A stretch of 64,000 nucleotides of DNA. Origin: Mycolicibacterium sp. lyk4-40-TYG-92 (lineage in GTDB: Bacteria; Actinomycetota; Actinomycetes; Mycobacteriales; Mycobacteriaceae). Each line of letters begins with the position of its first letter. The first letter of the stretch is position 1. The stretch is from assembly GCF_030209435.1 (NCBI RefSeq), contig NZ_JARVRX010000001.1, positions 1 to 64,000 on the forward strand. The letters run 5' to 3'. Of this stretch, positions 101-7,653 are shown one piece after another. Below the pieces are notes generated by a model that ran no database searches, was not told where the DNA came from, and saw nothing but the letters and a program-made list of their open reading frames with translations. Position numbers and translations under genes: made by a program.

Positions 101-1504
101 ATGGGATTCGCCGATCCGGCCGCTGTCGAGGAGGCCTACGCCGCCTGCGAGGCTGCGCAGGCTCGGCTCGCCTCCCTGGATTACAGCGGTCTGGACGTGC
201 CGACATTGTTGGCGTTGCAGTCGCGCCGCGAAACCCTGAAGTGCGCCGCCGAAGTGGTCGATCACCGGATTCTTTCCGCCGCGCAGTCTCAGGTCACGGC
301 CCGGGAGCTGGGGGCGAAGAACTGGGCCGAGGTGCTGCGTATCCGGTTACGCGTGGATACCACTGAAGCCAATCGTCGGGTCCGCGATGCCCTGAATTTG
401 GCGCCCCGCGCCGGGTTGACCGGGGAGCCGTTGCCGCCGCTGTGGGAGTTCGCCGCCGCGGCCCAGGCCGAGGGCGTGATCAACACCGAGCACGTGAAAG
501 TGATCGGCCAGTTCATCAACAAACTCCCCGGGTGGGTTGACCCCACCACCTGCGGGCAGTTCGAACGGTCCCTGGTTTCCGGGGCGCGGCACCAGACCCC
601 GGAAGAACTGCGGGCGGCGGCCGAGGCGCTGCTCTACCTGCTCGATCAGGACGGGCCGCTGCCCGATGATGCCGACCGTGCCCGCAAGCGCGGCCTCACC
701 GTGTCCAAACAACGACCCGACGGGATGTCGGATCTGCAGGGCACCTTGACCCCGGAAGCGCGGGCCTACCTCGATGCCCTGTTGGACAAATACGCCGCCC
801 CTGGCATGTGCAATCCCGCTGATCGGCCGCCCTGCTTCTCTGGCACCCCGTCAGCTGAGCAGATCGCCGGGGATACCCGCACCGCGGCCCAGCGTCGTCA
901 TGACGCGTGCACGGCGCTGCTGCGGATGCTGCTGGCCTCCGGGACGCTGGGGGAGCACAAGGGCGTGCCGATCGGTGTCGTGGCCACCTGTACCGTGACC
1001 GATCTGGAGCAGCGCACCGGGGTCGCGCTCACCCACACCGGCAGCAAGCTGCCCATCAAGGATCTGCTGCAGATGGCGGCCACCAACGGTGCCGACCACT
1101 ACCTCGCGGTGTTCGACCGGCACAGTGAACAGCTGCTGTATATGGGCCGAGCGCGGCGCACCGCCACCGTCGCCCAACGCTTCGCGCTGTTCGCCCGCGA
1201 CCACGGCTGCACCAAACCCAACTGCACAGCCCCGGCGTCGCGCTCGCAAGCCCACCATGTCGACACCGACTGGTGCGACGGCGGCCTGACCAACATCGGC
1301 AACCTCGCCCTGGCGTGTGACTGCGACAACGTTCTGGCCTACAACGGCGGCTGGAGCACCACCATGAAAAACGGCCGCGCCCACTGGACCCCACCACCGC
1401 TCCTGGACGTCGGCCAACCCAGGACCAATCGGTACCACCACCCGACGCTCTACCCACCCGAGAGCGGAGGCGATGACGGTGAAACAGACAGTCCCGCAAG
1501 CTGA
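101..1504 (+). CDS. DUF222 / HNH endonuclease domain protein (13E12 repeat family)
   Basis: This 467-aa protein has an N-terminal DUF222 region (about residues 15-310) and a C-terminal HNH nuclease-like domain. The HNH part shows CTKPNC followed by QAHHVDTDWCDGG and then NLALAC, the usual Cys-paired, His-His arrangement that binds a metal and cleaves DNA. The family is multi-copy in mycobacteria (the 13E12 repeats) and its biological role is unsettled. The start is the ATG directly after the SOS box; no good ribosome binding site fits, which suggests a leaderless or nearly leaderless message induced by DNA damage. The tail after the HNH domain is acidic and serine-rich. It stands alone, convergent with the next gene. 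Confidence 0.9.
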   Translation: MGFADPAAVEEAYAACEAAQARLASLDYSGLDVPTLLALQSRRETLKCAAEVVDHRILSAAQSQVTARELGAKNWAEVLRIRLRVDTTEANRRVRDALNLAPRAGLTGEPLPPLWEFAAAAQAEGVINTEHVKVIGQFINKLPGWVDPTTCGQFERSLVSGARHQTPEELRAAAEALLYLLDQDGPLPDDADRARKRGLTVSKQRPDGMSDLQGTLTPEARAYLDALLDKYAAPGMCNPADRPPCFSGTPSAEQIAGDTRTAAQRRHDACTALLRMLLASGTLGEHKGVPIGVVATCTVTDLEQRTGVALTHTGSKLPIKDLLQMAATNGADHYLAVFDRHSEQLLYMGRARRTATVAQRFALFARDHGCTKPNCTAPASRSQAHHVDTDWCDGGLTNIGNLALACDCDNVLAYNGGWSTTMKNGRAHWTPPPLLDVGQPRTNRYHHPTLYPPESGGDDGETDSPAS

Positions 1505-1601: not shown

Positions 1602-3053
1602 TCAGCCGGCGATACGCCGGGTGAACGTGCCGTGGAACCCGATCGGCAGATGGTGTTCCAGATGCGCGGTGGCCAATGGGCCGTCTTCGATGGTGCGGGC
1701 ATCGAAGATCACCAGTTGCGAACGATGGCTTCGCAGATCGTGATTGAGCACCAGCAGCCAGCCGTCGTCCTCGGCGGCGGTGCGGGAGCGCGGCACGAAC
1801 AACGGCTCGCCTGTCTGTGCCAGGCCGAAATCGAACGTGGTCTGGACGCCCGTGCGGTGGTCGATGCGCGTCACCGCGTTGTAGTGGCCCACGTCCTCGG
1901 TGGCCTTGCAGGCGTAGGTGACGTTGTGCTCCAGCGTCGAGCGACGCCAGTCGTACTGCGGGAATTCCATTGGGGCCGTTGCTGATAAAACGGTCTCGGT
2001 GATCCGCCCGGACTTGCTGATCCGGAACCGCGACAGGTGCCCGCGGGGCCACTCGTCGATGGTCAGGTGCGCGCGGGGATCGGCCGGGTCCGACGGATCC
2101 TGCCAGGCCTTGCCGAGCTTGCCGAAGACATCCGAGTCCTCGAACCGGAAGAACTCCACCACGGTGTCGGAGCCGTCTTCGAACGCGTTGGTGACGTGGA
2201 TGTGCGTCAGCGCCTCGTGCTCGATGATGCGGGGCTTGGACCCGTCGCGCGGCACCAGGGCGAACCGGGTTGAACCGTTGCGGGTCTGGTGCTCCAGGGC
2301 TTTCGCCAGCGACCGGGTGCGCAACAGCGTCGGGATGTTGGGGCGCAACGGATCCAGGACGAAAACCATGTGGTTCTCGGTGAGCGCGAAGTCGTGATTC
2401 CACACCATGTCCCACAACTTGAGCGAGCTGATCTGGTGGCTGCGGCCGGCGCGGTCCACCTTGAAGCACCGCAGCCGCGGCGTGGGCAGCAGGTCGAGGC
2501 CGAAGTTGTAGACGTCGCCGGTGTGCGGATCCCACTTGGGATGGGCGGAGAAAGACCCGAGATAGCCGAGCCGGTCGCCGTCAAAGCGCTTGTAGCCCAA
2601 AGTATCCAGCGAGTCCGGATCGATCTTGTACGGCGGCCCGCCCTCCCACATGGCCAGGAGGTCGCCACAGATGGTCGCCATGTTGGTGTTGCCGGTATTG
2701 GCCGGTGGGTGCAGATTGCCGCGCAGGGTGGGGGCATTGGTGGTGATGCCGCGCTGGCTCATCACGTCGCCGCCAAGGTATTGCCTGGTGCGGACATAGC
2801 GGTTGGTGAAGCGGACGCCCCGGCCGTCGAGGACGAAGCGCGACACCATGCCGTCGGCGTCGAACATGGTCTTGAGTACGGTGTCGCCGACCTCGAACTT
2901 GCCGGGGCCGATACGGAACAACGTGCCGGTCAGCTCGGGCGGCAGGGCACCGTCGATGTGGGTGACCTGGTAGTCCATCTCGTCGTACAGGGACGCGAAG
3001 GCGCGGCCGTGCAGCTGCTTGAGCGTCGGTTCCGCGGGCACTGTGGCTGTCAT
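1602..3053 (-). CDS. Carotenoid cleavage dioxygenase-family oxygenase
   Basis: The 483-aa protein belongs to the carotenoid oxygenase (RPE65/lignostilbene dioxygenase) family, seven-bladed propellers with a four-histidine non-heme iron that split conjugated double bonds. The likely iron ligands are visible: His171 (SAHPKWD), His220 (WNHDFAL), His286 (THIHVTNAFEDG) and His474 (GFHGTF). The EDG and the C-terminal FHGTF are family signatures. There is no signal peptide, so it should be cytosolic. The substrate cannot be read from sequence; apocarotenoids or stilbene-like phenolics are possible. It lies 70 nt downstream of a membrane-protein gene on the same strand, and a perfect palindrome 12 nt before its ATG suggests separate control. 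Confidence 0.9.
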   Translation of the reverse strand: MTATVPAEPTLKQLHGRAFASLYDEMDYQVTHIDGALPPELTGTLFRIGPGKFEVGDTVLKTMFDADGMVSRFVLDGRGVRFTNRYVRTRQYLGGDVMSQRGITTNAPTLRGNLHPPANTGNTNMATICGDLLAMWEGGPPYKIDPDSLDTLGYKRFDGDRLGYLGSFSAHPKWDPHTGDVYNFGLDLLPTPRLRCFKVDRAGRSHQISSLKLWDMVWNHDFALTENHMVFVLDPLRPNIPTLLRTRSLAKALEHQTRNGSTRFALVPRDGSKPRIIEHEALTHIHVTNAFEDGSDTVVEFFRFEDSDVFGKLGKAWQDPSDPADPRAHLTIDEWPRGHLSRFRISKSGRITETVLSATAPMEFPQYDWRRSTLEHNVTYACKATEDVGHYNAVTRIDHRTGVQTTFDFGLAQTGEPLFVPRSRTAAEDDGWLLVLNHDLRSHRSQLVIFDARTIEDGPLATAHLEHHLPIGFHGTFTRRIAG

Positions 3054-3064
3054 GCAATCTCCAT

Positions 3065-3084
3065 CTGAGGACGTGTGTCCTCAG
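3065..3084 (-). promoter_or_regulatory. Perfect palindrome before the carotenoid oxygenase gene
   Basis: CTGAGGAC-GTGT-GTCCTCAG is a perfect dyad with 8-bp arms, ending 12 nt upstream of the oxygenase ATG at 3053. No T-tract follows on the coding strand, so an operator is likelier than a terminator. The size and symmetry suit a TetR-type repressor; which one is unknown. Confidence 0.6.
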
Positions 3085-3123
3085 TTTTGGCCTGGAGGTG
3101 GCGTGCTGTCAAGACTTCACGGG

Positions 3124-4419
3124 CTATCCGCCGAAGAGCAGGTACAGCCCCGTGAAGGTGTAGCCGACCATCACCAGCATCATCGCCAGCTGACCGGTGA
3201 GTTGATGTCGCTTGGGCAGGATGCGCAGCGCGCAGTCGTGTGCTGCGACGACGCCGGCGATGTGCCCGGCCACCACGAACAGCACCTTGGTCGTGGCCAG
3301 CACCGAAGGGTGCATCGACAGTACGTAGTACACGTGCGCGTCGTGCAGGCCCACCAGCTGGTAGACGGTCTGCTGGCCCTTCTCGACGAGGTAGGTCAGG
3401 TAATGCGCGAACACGTAGCCGATGACGATCGGGATGAGGGAATGCGCCATCAATCCGGGCAGCTGCCGGCGCCGCGCGCGGTCCACCCCGCCGGTGGCGC
3501 GGGCGGCGAGGCTGAACGACACGGCGACGGTCGTGACAAATACCGCCAGCCCAAGGGTTTTCAGCCCCGTGGCCTGCCAGGTGCCGTCGGTATGCGCTTG
3601 GACGAACCCGCGCCACGCCGGCGTCGCCGAGAAACTGTCGAAGGCCGTCGAGCCCAGCAGCACCGCGAGCACCGTCACAGTGGCGGGCCGGATCGGCAAC
3701 GTGGGTAGGTGGTTGAACGGATTCCCGACGGCGATCTGTCCATCGGCGTTGCGCCGCAACGGGGCGCACCGTGAGGCCACCACGCTGTACACCTCGAACG
3801 GGTCGGCGTGCGAGCACCAGCGGGTGCCGCACACCGCCGCTCCGGTCAGTGTCACCGCCAGATAGATCATCAGCCAGATGCGCACGGCGCCAACCGAACC
3901 CGGGTCGGGGCTGGCCAGCTCGAGCCAGACGAACGCGAACAAGCCGGCCGCCGCGGGCCAGTATCCGAGCCGCGCGGGATATGCGTTCCGGCTCAGTCGG
4001 AGTAGCCGGGCAATGGTCCGTACCGGCGACAGTACCCGCCACACCGGGCCGAAAAGCACTGACAGCGCGACGATTCCGACCCACAGCAGCACGTAGAACA
4101 CGCCTGGCAGCGGGTTGCCGGACCCGGGTGGTCCGACGACGGACGCCACGACAGCCCATGCGGCGAACGCCAGGGCCAGCAGCCCGACCGTCCACCGGGT
4201 GGCCGGCGCGTCGACGGCCGTCGTCACCCAGCGCGGCAATGCCCGTCCCGGTGCCTCCGGGTCGAACCGCGGCTTGCGCCAAGCCAGCGCCACCACTGCG
4301 AAGGTGAAGGTCAACGCCCACGCCGCGCCGATCAGGGCGTAGGTCACGGGGATGGGCAGATCGGTTGACCCGCCCAGCCCGTGGGCCAGGACTGTGGAGG
4401 TCACTGCGTCGGGACGCAC
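3124..4419 (-). CDS. Polytopic membrane protein with AHGLxGxxDLPIP N-terminus
   Basis: This 431-aa protein has roughly nine to ten hydrophobic helices. The N-terminus reads AHGLGGSTDLPIP just before the first helix. I recall that motif from actinobacterial membrane proteins sometimes labelled fenitrothion-hydrolase-like, a weak functional assignment. A central loop has CGTRWCSHADPFEVYS and a third nearby Cys. The C-terminal helices carry several histidines (AHYLTYL, DAHVYY, SMHP, GHIAG, AHDC), which could bind metal or heme. The GTG at 4419 follows the lipoprotein stop by 5 nt, so the two are co-transcribed. Its function is unknown; an integral partner of the lipoprotein and of the large membrane protein upstream is the best inference. 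Confidence 0.75.
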   Translation of the reverse strand: MRPDAVTSTVLAHGLGGSTDLPIPVTYALIGAAWALTFTFAVVALAWRKPRFDPEAPGRALPRWVTTAVDAPATRWTVGLLALAFAAWAVVASVVGPPGSGNPLPGVFYVLLWVGIVALSVLFGPVWRVLSPVRTIARLLRLSRNAYPARLGYWPAAAGLFAFVWLELASPDPGSVGAVRIWLMIYLAVTLTGAAVCGTRWCSHADPFEVYSVVASRCAPLRRNADGQIAVGNPFNHLPTLPIRPATVTVLAVLLGSTAFDSFSATPAWRGFVQAHTDGTWQATGLKTLGLAVFVTTVAVSFSLAARATGGVDRARRRQLPGLMAHSLIPIVIGYVFAHYLTYLVEKGQQTVYQLVGLHDAHVYYVLSMHPSVLATTKVLFVVAGHIAGVVAAHDCALRILPKRHQLTGQLAMMLVMVGYTFTGLYLLFGG

Positions 4420-4424
4420 AATGG

Positions 4425-4835
4425 CTACTGCACCGTGATGGTGGCGACCGTCTTGTCCAGGTGATGCAATTCGACGTCGACCTTGCCCGGCACGTCGACG
4501 GTGAACTGGAACTCCTGACCCTTCTCCGGTTTGACGTTGAAGGTGTGCTCGGGGTTCGAGTGCACGTGCAGTTGGTCGGCGGCGTCACTGGTGACGCGCA
4601 CGATGATCGGCTGGCCGAGCTTGGCCTGCACCTGCTGGTCGAGCGGCGTCGCGGTGCCGCCCGCGATGGTCACGTCGATGTAGACGCGCGCCGGCGGCGC
4701 CTGCGGGTTGCTCAGTTGCGTTGTGCCCGTTGCGGAGGCGCTCGACGAACTGCTGGGCGCCGACTCGTTCTTGCTGCAGCCGACGAGCGCCAGTGCGACA
4801 GCGCCGGCCACGGCGAAAGTCTTCACAAAGGTCAC
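4425..4835 (-). CDS. Small cupredoxin-like lipoprotein
   Basis: This is a predicted 136-aa lipoprotein with a short hydrophobic signal ending in the lipobox LVGC, then a Ser-rich linker. The rest is a beta-rich domain with phrases typical of cupredoxin-like folds, such as QPIIVRVTSDAADQLHVHS, FTVDVPGKVDVELH and a TIT-type final strand. The usual blue-copper Cys is not seen; His in LHVHS and ELHHL might bind metal. The GTG at 4835 overlaps the stop of the one-helix gene upstream (GTGA), which fixes the start. A longer open frame upstream is not coding. It is probably anchored outside the cytoplasmic membrane as a partner of the two membrane proteins of this operon. Confidence 0.75.
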   Translation of the reverse strand: MTFVKTFAVAGAVALALVGCSKNESAPSSSSSASATGTTQLSNPQAPPARVYIDVTIAGGTATPLDQQVQAKLGQPIIVRVTSDAADQLHVHSNPEHTFNVKPEKGQEFQFTVDVPGKVDVELHHLDKTVATITVQ

Positions 4836-5017
4836 GCGGAACCATCCTCTTCGGTCGAACCTGTTGTCTCCGACTCGGTTTCGACACCATCGGAGCTGGA
4901 ACTGTCGTGTGCCCGCCGGTCTTTCATGGCCACCCAGGCCACGACCCCGGCCACGACGAACGCAGGGGCGAACGCGGGCAGTGCCAACAATAGCGAGTGA
5001 TCGGCCAGATAGGTCAC
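4832..5017 (-). CDS. One-helix small membrane protein with acidic tail
   Basis: The 61-aa product has one transmembrane helix (about residues 8-32, rich in Ala, Val and Phe), then basic residues (KDRR) and a Ser/Thr/Glu-rich acidic tail. Charge distribution puts the tail in the cytoplasm. It starts with GTG overlapping the previous stop and its TGA overlaps the GTG of the lipoprotein, so it is translationally coupled on both sides. That is strong evidence that this small frame is real. It resembles small accessory subunits of membrane complexes (CcmD or CcoQ-like in size), but no homology is claimed. Confidence 0.75.
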   Translation of the reverse strand: MTYLADHSLLLALPAFAPAFVVAGVVAWVAMKDRRAHDSSSSDGVETESETTGSTEEDGSA

Positions 5018-6861
5018 GGCTGTCCGACGGGTTCCCTGGCCTCGGTGGCGCTGAACTGCTCACGCGAATTGATCCGTCCCGCACCCCAACTGAGCAGTGC
5101 GATCAGGATCAGCGAGCACACCAGCACGATCAGGGACGCCGCGGGATACAGCCACGTGGGCACATCGAGATTGCGTTCGCGCTGCAGGACCTTGATCTCT
5201 TCGGTGAAGTCACGGGTCGTCGAGATCGCCGGCGTCTCTTCGGCACCGATACCGGGGTCGGCCGGCAGGTACACCGGCACCGCCGCCATGGTGCGGCCGT
5301 CCTGCACGCGCAGCACCGTCTTCCACGTACCCCAGACCGGGATCGGCCGGGTGGACCGGTAGTGGCCCGGGCCGACCTGCTTCAGGTGGTCGACCACCAG
5401 ACCGCGCTCGTGCTCGAGCTTGCCCTGCCACGCCATCAGCGTCACCCATTCCGGGTCATCGCTGATGAGGTTGGCCGGCGTGATCTGGATGTCTGCGTTC
5501 ACAAGCCGCTGCCCCTGCGGGCTCGGCGCGTCAGTGAGGGTGATCTGTGCGCGCGCATGCTCGGGCACTGTGATGTGCAGGCCGTTGGCGACCCCGCCGG
5601 CAATCACCAGGACCGTGGCAACCACGATGCCGATACCGACCGGGCGGGCGGGCAGGCGCTGACCGGTGAGCACGAGGGCCAGCAACGCACCACACATGCC
5701 CATGACGATCGCGACGGGCGTCGACATCGTCAGCGCCTCACCCCACATGCTGCTGGGCCACGGCGTGCGGAACATGGCGTCGACCCAGAACGATTCCAGC
5801 CACATGCCGATGGTGCCGACGCCCAGGCCGGCCACGGCGCCGAAGAGGATGGGCCGCTTGGCAAGCGGCGTCAGCCCGACCAGTTCCACCACGATCGCCG
5901 AGCCCAGATAGAGCGCACACCAACTGTAGGGAGAGCCGAGGATGGGCCCGACCATCAGAGCGACCAGACCGCGGATGAACAACGCGAACGCGATCGCGCC
6001 GAACGTGGAGTAGCGGCCCAGCGTGAGTCGCGTGGCCACCAGCGACATGGCCGCTGCGGCGGCGATCAGCATGGGGTGCAGCACCAGCCGGAACTGTTCG
6101 ACGCCGAAGTCGTATTCGACCGGGAACACCGACAGGCCGATCACCAGACCGCCGAAGGCCAGGTAGGGCAGCACCTTGTTGCGAGCGGCCGGGGCGTCGG
6201 CGCCCATCGCGATGTCACCCTCGCGCTCCAGGAGCAGCGTGGCGACCAGGGAGAGCCCGGCGCCGCCGATGAGCATCAAATGTGTTGGGCCCCAGAGCGT
6301 CACATCCTGGCCGAAGATGCGGTGCCAGATGTCGTCGAGCGGGAAACCGATCAGCGCGTACAGGCCGCAACCGGCCATCAGCACGCCGCCGACGGGCGCG
6401 TACCAGGTTTTGGTGATCTTGATGGCTGCCGGGCCCGGCTTGTCGTACGGCAGGATGATCGACAGCGATCCGGCGATGAACAGCAGGAACAGGCCGACCA
6501 GGATGAAGTAGTGCGCGGGGTTTGCGAGCGGGCCGGCGTCGCGGCCCTTGCCGATGTGCAGGCTGACGTCCCAGATGAAGCCGAACATCGCGCAGATGAT
6601 GGTCGAGATGAACAGCAGCGAGGGCAGCGCAACCCAGCTGGGCCGGTTCATCTTGCGGCCGGCCTTGTCTGCCAGGTCCTTCAGCCAGGTGATGCGGCGT
6701 TGCCGGTGCAGGTAGCCGATCCACAACAGGCCTGCGGTGATGATGCCCGTTGCCACCGACATCCCGATGACCTGATCGAGGGCAGCGCCTCCGCCTTCGG
6801 TTCCGGCCGCGGCCACCACGGTGACCTGCTCGGCGAGCTGTGCTGCCATGTTCCACCCCAC
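5014..6861 (-). CDS. Large polytopic membrane protein with duplicated Asp/His motif
   Basis: The 615-aa protein has about ten to twelve helices, then an extracytoplasmic domain (about residues 425-565) and a last helix near 570-595. Two stretches share one pattern: WDVSLHIGKGRD followed by NPAHY, and DDIWHRIFGQD followed by GPTHLML. Each has Asp, His, Gly-x-Asp and Pro-x-His, suggesting an internal duplication with possible metal ligands. The extracytoplasmic domain has VGPGHYRSTRPIPVWGTWKT, like YtkA/FixH-type domains linked to copper handling. The GTG at 6861 is used; an ATG at 6849 with a nearby GGGGTGG is an equal alternative. It heads the operon and is divergent from a TetR gene. Function unknown. 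Confidence 0.75.
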   Translation of the reverse strand: MGWNMAAQLAEQVTVVAAAGTEGGGAALDQVIGMSVATGIITAGLLWIGYLHRQRRITWLKDLADKAGRKMNRPSWVALPSLLFISTIICAMFGFIWDVSLHIGKGRDAGPLANPAHYFILVGLFLLFIAGSLSIILPYDKPGPAAIKITKTWYAPVGGVLMAGCGLYALIGFPLDDIWHRIFGQDVTLWGPTHLMLIGGAGLSLVATLLLEREGDIAMGADAPAARNKVLPYLAFGGLVIGLSVFPVEYDFGVEQFRLVLHPMLIAAAAAMSLVATRLTLGRYSTFGAIAFALFIRGLVALMVGPILGSPYSWCALYLGSAIVVELVGLTPLAKRPILFGAVAGLGVGTIGMWLESFWVDAMFRTPWPSSMWGEALTMSTPVAIVMGMCGALLALVLTGQRLPARPVGIGIVVATVLVIAGGVANGLHITVPEHARAQITLTDAPSPQGQRLVNADIQITPANLISDDPEWVTLMAWQGKLEHERGLVVDHLKQVGPGHYRSTRPIPVWGTWKTVLRVQDGRTMAAVPVYLPADPGIGAEETPAISTTRDFTEEIKVLQRERNLDVPTWLYPAASLIVLVCSLILIALLSWGAGRINSREQFSATEAREPVGQP

Positions 6862-6987: not shown

Positions 6988-7653
6988 ATGGCTGATGACG
7001 GATCGGGCACGGGTTCGGGCACCGCACCGCAGCGCAGGTATTCCGGCAGGTCGGCGGAGGAGCGACGGGCCGATCGGCGACGGCTGCTGCTGGACGCGGC
7101 CGAGGCGTTGTGGCGCGAAGGCGGGCTGTCGGCGCTGAGCGTGCGCGCGGTTTCGGCCCGTGCCAAACTCACCGATCGCTACTTCTATGAGCAGTTTGCC
7201 GGCCTCGGTGCGCTGATCGGCGCCGTGATCGACGATGTGTTGGAGGGGCCCTTCGCCGCGATGCTGGCCGGAGGGAGTGCGCCCGAGTCGGCGACGGTCC
7301 AGACCCGGCTGACGCTGGGGCTGGCCGGGTTCATCGAGCATGCCGAGAGCGACCCACTGGCCGTTCGGATCTTCCTGACCGACGCCCGGCACATCGACTC
7401 GGTCTCCGAGCACATCCGGATCGCGCAACATCGGGTGGCTGCCGCGATCCTGGCGTTGCTGCAGCCCGACCGCGACGCCGATCAGGAGAGCTTCGACGCG
7501 GCACTGTTCTGTGTCGGCGGTGTGGCCACCCTGATCAACGAACGGCTTCTTGACGACACGAAAACGGTTACGGCGCAAGACTTTGCGGAACAGGTGGTCG
7601 GCTGGTGCGCGCGGGTCCTCCGGGTACCGGAGGACCCGCGCGCACCGAGCTGA
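6988..7653 (+). CDS. TetR-family transcriptional regulator
   Basis: The 221-aa protein has a disordered, Gly/Arg-rich N-terminus, then a TetR helix-turn-helix (about residues 35-70: LLLDAAEALWREGG, then LSVRAVSARAKLTDRYFYEQF) and a helical ligand domain. The ATG at 6988 is chosen because GGAGGGAGGGG lies about nine bases before it; an upstream in-frame ATG at 6949 lacks one. It is divergently transcribed from the five-gene membrane-protein set, the usual layout for a local repressor, so it probably controls that operon in response to an unknown small molecule. Confidence 0.85.
   Translation: MADDGSGTGSGTAPQRRYSGRSAEERRADRRRLLLDAAEALWREGGLSALSVRAVSARAKLTDRYFYEQFAGLGALIGAVIDDVLEGPFAAMLAGGSAPESATVQTRLTLGLAGFIEHAESDPLAVRIFLTDARHIDSVSEHIRIAQHRVAAAILALLQPDRDADQESFDAALFCVGGVATLINERLLDDTKTVTAQDFAEQVVGWCARVLRVPEDPRAPS

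Follow-up and report, generated by a model that had tools for sequence, protein, structure and literature searches.

What is the function of the tightly packed membrane protein genes that lie near leuA in Mycolicibacterium sp. lyk4-40-TYG-92? The window, i.e., the whole stretch of 64,000 nt that was analyzed (NZ_JARVRX010000001.1, positions 1-64,000), contains four such genes, here called A, B, C and D, followed by a gene for a carotenoid-cleavage-type oxygenase and flanked by a divergent TetR regulator gene. The sequence-only reading had proposed that the first five form an undescribed membrane system with a metal or redox role. Our best reading is that A-B-C-D form a cassette which encodes a predicted copper-dependent membrane oxidase or oxygenase together with a copper-supply pair. 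Protein A is a predicted relative of the copper membrane monooxygenases (CuMMOs), which drive methane and ammonia oxidation. The catalytic copper site of the CuMMOs is debated, the candidates being CuB in PmoB and CuC/CuD in PmoC.

The A-B-C-D cassette

The features of the cassette are the following (TM, transmembrane).

5014-6861, minus strand: gene A, 615 aa, polytopic; predicted single-chain CuMMO relative
6187-6792, minus strand: A residues 24-225, PmoC-like domain according to hhalign to PmoC
6511-6570, minus strand: A site 1, CuC-like, with the invariant residues D98, H102, R107, D108 and H117
6280-6336, minus strand: A site 2, CuD-like, with the invariant residues D176, H180, D186 and H194
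5650-6186, minus strand: A residues 226-404, predicted AmoA/PmoA-like helical domain
5017-5649, minus strand: A residues 405-615, a TM helix, an outer beta domain and a TM helix, in the place of PmoB
4832-5017, minus strand: gene B, 61 aa, one likely TM helix
about 4425-4835, minus strand: gene C, about 136 aa, His-rich lipoprotein
3124-4419, minus strand: gene D, 431 aa, polytopic

Reading of the open reading frames (ORFs) on the minus strand gave the five genes, their positions and their spacing as first described, with GTGA overlaps at A/B and B/C and a gap of 5 nt between C and D. The oxygenase gene starts 70 nt after D, and leuA lies beyond the TetR gene. The membrane parts are indeed undescribed. 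At the curated cut-offs of Pfam and NCBIfam, no family was matched by any gene of the cassette. Among the six genes, Pfam cut-offs were reached only by the oxygenase, which belongs to RPE65 (PF03055, E 4.9e-110, 369.2 bits against a cut-off of 27), and by the TetR_N domain of the divergent regulator (E 4.1e-7). NCBIfam cut-offs were reached by no gene of the cluster.

Homologues of A and D are present in numbers beyond chance (at least 6459 and at least 5851, respectively). Gene neighborhoods were counted for the best 80 of 428 relatives, with loci taken from named genomes. The ORFs of the further flanking clusters, of the A and D loci read across the phylum and of the sister-family loci described below were called with a crude script, by which the frame of A was missed in L240 and that of D in L282. 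D is located downstream of A in 77 of the 80 loci. Of the three others, two are cut off by a contig edge and L069 lacks D. C was detected in 72 loci, and B is located between A and C in 48 and upstream of A in 17. The latter 17 all fall within L040-L080, with L095 as a further case, and hence the place of B shifts at a fixed order of A, C and D.

Two further genes adjoin the cassette in the window.

1602-3053, minus strand: carotenoid-cleavage-type oxygenase, RPE65; neighbor in close relatives only
6988-7653, plus strand: TetR regulator gene, divergent, TetR_N; neighbor in close relatives only

Each of them was found in 4 of the 80 loci, namely in M. llatzerense and three strains with an A of 90-95% identity; leuA adjoins in three of these and lies some 6 kb off in L004. 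Other flanking genes vary, the commonest further gene cluster being present in 32 loci. Since the oxygenase and the TetR gene are restricted to 4 loci and D follows A in 77, the conserved unit is the A-B-C-D cassette, with these two genes outside it. A five-gene membrane complex that feeds or serves the carotenoid oxygenase under TetR control would fit the tight spacing in the window and the same order in the four close relatives, but the oxygenase and the TetR gene were not found in 76 of the 80 loci, although 65 of these had room for the oxygenase, which makes such a complex highly improbable. Co-occurrence in other genomes had been named beforehand as the test of the five-gene proposal; it was found for A, B, C and D and not for the oxygenase. 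The suggestion of an apolar substrate cleaved by the oxygenase loses its basis as well, because the oxygenase is not part of the conserved unit. On the oxygenase side, the cluster is bordered by a 467-aa ORF (101-1504, plus strand) with an HNH-like C-terminus, which we take to resemble the 13E12 repeat family.

The double Asp/His site of A and its likely relation to PmoC

In PmoC, copper CuC is bound by Asp156, His160 and His173 and CuD by Asn227, His231 and His245, with Arg165 as a second-sphere residue (PMC12576850). Protein A contains two comparable sets, D98-x3-H102-x14-H117 (site 1) and D176-x3-H180-x13-H194 (site 2), and R107 stands at the position expected for Arg165. Both sites including R107 are invariant in 61 of 61 aligned relatives, a set which comes mostly from a scan with peptide patterns that include H117, so that this residue was partly selected. 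They are likewise invariant in 18 of 18 sequences obtained from a phylum-wide similarity search alone, where 13 of the 17 relatives share 30-44% identity.

D98, H102 and H117 align to D115, H119 and H132 of PmoC from M. chubuense NBB4, i.e., the CuC-type ligands Asp-x3-His-x12-His are present in A, with a second spacing of x14 in this protein and of x12 in PmoC and in a sister family described below. Site 2 has the CuD spacing of PmoC, with Asp in place of Asn in all 61 and all 18 sequences. In the distant member L105 the first motif reads WDVAWHIDLGRD..LFTPSH, compared to DASWHQIVTRDTAFTPSH in PmoC. A thus resembles PmoC/AmoC (Pfam PF04896) in having two Asp(Asn)-x3-His-x12-14-His sets, which are 73 residues apart in PmoC and 78 in A, and in the Arg at the same place ahead of the second Asp of site 1; in the structure model of A each set spans a helix end, a loop and the next helix. 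Besides the Asp of site 2 and the x14 of site 1, it differs from PmoC/AmoC by a score below the cut-off and by its fusion to further domains.

The double pattern was found in 98 of 98 A members and in no other ORF out of 1626, and shuffling of the domain produced it in 3 of 200,000 cases; it was written after both families had been inspected, and the 98 members were chosen by their hidden Markov model (HMM) score. The HMMs of A and PmoC were built on sets of 110 and 58 rows, respectively, that had been picked by motif patterns, and the conservation and pattern counts in these sets (109-110 of 110 and 58 of 58), being partly circular, were not used as evidence.

Compared directly, A and PmoC matched weakly, with an hhalign P of 0.023 against 0.14 and 0.22 for the reversed controls. 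This match comprises site 1 only when local, and all six ligand positions are paired when it is extended to full length (-mact 0). A sister family of 485 aa serves as the bridge between the two. It has no named family of its own and was first seen as a second match in three genomes of the genus; 120 members were found by similarity alone. The sister family aligns to A over 467 columns with an E-value of 1.8e-25. Against PmoC it reached P 0.00084, compared to 0.46 and 0.59 for the reversed controls; the alignment pairs each of the six ligands, and the spacing of site 1 is exactly that of PmoC. Of the 120 members, the PmoC HMM matched 83 at E<=10 and 34 at E<1e-3, compared to none of 1724 other ORFs, among them the 98 A members, and none of 240 reversed or shuffled sister members. 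A merged profile of A and the sister family gave P 0.0015 against PmoC, and its score of 28.2 exceeded those of all 100 column shuffles (best 20.9).

In Pfam, the sister family matched AmoC most often (23 of 58 at E<=1, lowest E 0.0011) and FixH next (7 of 58, lowest E 0.003); the AmoC scores shown, 11.2-15.4 bits, lie below the AmoC cut-off of 26.7 bits, and those for FixH are likewise sub-cut-off. A and 15 relatives had no Pfam AmoC match at E<=1, and none was found in the own genome at E<=10. The sequence link from A to the sister family is shown, and so, more weakly, is the one from the sister family to PmoC. Three sister-family loci, all mycobacterial, were inspected by eye (L299:3719-5173, minus strand; L300:4114-5568, plus strand; L301:3811-5268, minus strand). 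CopY/BlaI-like genes lie near the sister-family gene, accompanied in L300 by CcdA-like and plastocyanin-like genes, and in L301 a C gene is located 3.8 kb from it.

The middle domain of A, predicted to have a PmoA-like fold, shows 11-12% identity to AmoA/PmoA, and the signature GDW.FW.DWKDR, derived from four aligned PmoA rows, is missing from the A sequence. The outer beta domain, predicted from the structure model, comes last in order and is accompanied by TM helices as in PmoB/AmoB, but it lacks conserved His: within residues 405-615 no His is conserved at >=90% across 18 members, and the CuB His ligands of PmoB are thus absent. Foldseek with A gave no PmoC or PmoA chain among the best 50 matches, PmoC was missing from the 50 matches listed by VIA-align, which re-scored the best 1000 of Foldseek, and a PDB sequence search with A profiles yielded nothing credible. 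Of the original description of A, the duplicated Asp/His motifs are confirmed, and the outer domain is predicted to be of the beta type. The FixH likeness of A itself is weak (E<=1 in 2 of 16 members, with 0.18 as the lowest value) and is better in the sister family.

C and D among copper and CuMMO genes

Protein C has a lipobox (LVGC, seen by eye) and a predicted lipid anchor. Its H-x-H motif is present in 76 of 76 aligned rows, of which 73 and 75 also have one and the other of an additional pair of His. The model of D has a predicted local distance difference test score (pLDDT) of 85.2 and no match in the PDB. An assignment of D as CopD, as a transporter or as a known enzyme was rejected, given the lack of any Pfam, NCBIfam or PDB match; the UniRef name "Fenitrothion hydrolase" on one homologue (P0129) is taken as no more than a label. 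Relatives of D also occur in haloarchaea, rhizobia and roseobacters.

PmoC was found in ten plasmid records, four of them actinobacterial. On all four, D is located about 1-10 kb from the CuMMO genes; directly upstream of D lies a C-like lipoprotein gene on two of them and a 75-aa hypothetical gene on the other two. None of the six non-actinobacterial records was among the 60 D records listed. Elsewhere D adjoins genes for a heavy-metal P-type ATPase, PCuAC or CopC, and oxidase-assembly, DUF305 and CopY-type genes are present on two of those D plasmids. On the M. vanbaalenii JOB5 plasmid, A adjoins CopC and lies 8 kb from C-D; the same stretch (L089:10131-30288) also combines genes for heme-copper oxidase subunit III, cytochrome c oxidase assembly, DUF305 and a CopY-type protein.

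Such neighbors could also belong to a module that serves cytochrome oxidase in its assembly or redox function, made up of a FixH-like outer domain, a cupredoxin-like lipoprotein and oxidase-assembly partners. The FixH matches of the sister family, the subunit III and assembly genes near C-D on two plasmids and a cytochrome-oxidase-I-like ORF seen by eye near D in one locus are consistent with it. It accounts, however, neither for the PmoC-type double site nor for the AmoA-like domain, and inspection by eye revealed no cox gene common to the flanking clusters of the 80 loci, where even the most frequent cluster is limited to 32 loci. This explanation is regarded as improbable.

In the phylum sample of 396 genomes, D was found in 98, A in 51 and both in 35 (16 of 32 outside the class), and the two co-occur with a Fisher p of 9e-13, uncorrected for kinship. 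C was recognized beside D in 8 of 19 further loci with a called D, and up to four ORFs away no match to PmoC or PmoA was displayed in them. Across the phylum, 20 A loci were read; four of them, all in the own class, have a D called near A, and outside this class the loci read contain A without C-D. C-D is thus a general pair, likely for copper, which would serve A, CuMMOs and probably other copper proteins. Extended pmo/amo operons likewise include copC and copD, in some cases also PCuAC, and each of these has been implicated in the homeostasis of copper (PMC6189053). C-D resembles the CopC, CopD, PCuAC and PmoD proteins of these operons in that a small periplasmic copper-type protein and a polytopic partner stand beside enzyme genes, but C and D match none of them in Pfam or NCBIfam. 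A likely metal or redox role and a copper link, as first proposed, are supported: the motifs of A fit the PmoC copper-site pattern and D, often with C, is found among copper and CuMMO genes.

The 51 genomes of the phylum sample with A include fragments and one match of 73 residues (G247). A match was obtained in 86 of the 118 genomes of the genus sample; in 85 of them it is A itself and in G428 only the 485-aa relative. Full-length A is missing from 33. Viral contigs in virus libraries contained no relative of A, and no viral fold matched. Three distant A members without C-D (L238, L239, L248) are located beside a MerR regulator gene, which was identified through Pfam MerR_1 in L239 and L248 and by eye in L238. 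A nitroreductase-domain gene follows in L239; these loci are perhaps another version of the system. A glutamine synthetase gene neighbors distant A members in L236 and L237.

An oxidizing enzyme or a copper-handling protein

The chances seem about even that A is a single-chain CuMMO relative which binds two copper ions in its PmoC-like domain, receives copper from C and D and oxidizes a small substrate. The reaction centre would then be the PmoC-like pair of sites beside the PmoA-like domain. C and D would load copper into A, electrons may arrive from the quinone pool or through C, and the oxidation would use O2 at the membrane; B may have a structural role.

Several observations weigh against this assignment. 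Formal CuMMO membership fails, with no PmoA signature, no CuB ligands, scores below the cut-offs and a single reading frame in place of the three genes xmoCAB (PMC6215863); A is therefore called a relative and not a member. No common substrate pathway is evident in the 20 A loci read across the phylum. Furthermore, the copper neighborhood fits a non-catalytic protein equally well. A could be such a copper protein on the same scaffold, which together with C and D senses, stores or moves envelope copper, the CuMMOs being its enzymatic cousins. This is the main rival, and the missing CuB site, the CopC, CopY/BlaI-M56, DUF305, cytochrome oxidase assembly or P-type ATPase genes around A, C and D and the CopY-like genes seen by eye beside the sister family all agree with it. 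We nevertheless consider it rather unlikely, since all 18 members found by similarity retain the CuC- and CuD-like ligands together with the second-sphere Arg, as would be expected of a reaction centre, and copper neighbors suit an enzyme equally, as in the pmo/amo operons (PMC6189053).

Another close known system is the actinobacterial hydrocarbon monooxygenase hmoCAB on the M. chubuense NBB4 plasmid, with its own C-like and D genes 5 kb away; it differs by three separate canonical subunits, and no gene A is annotated in the 19 kb stretch read. Among the literature titles listed as matches, no single-chain or mycobacterial CuMMO relative beyond this enzyme appeared, most subscription journals being outside the coverage.

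A bolder form of the enzyme reading is proposed tentatively and at less than even chances. According to it, A would be a CuMMO in one polypeptide, with C-, A- and B-type parts and both CuC and CuD sites, an unnoticed O2-activating enzyme in about 7 of 10 mycobacterial genomes sampled (85/118) and scattered over the phylum, perhaps a present-day sister of the ancestor from which methane and ammonia oxidation arose.

If the enzyme reading is true, A would form a new branch of the CuMMO superfamily, made of a single chain and found in common mycobacteria, and a copper oxidase or oxygenase would be predicted in genomes where the A gene is annotated as hypothetical. As A seems to keep the PmoC ligands without CuB, the question of the catalytic site could be addressed through a single gene in a mycobacterium that grows easily. 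D, an unnamed family without PDB match that reaches the haloarchaea, would gain a testable role in copper supply.

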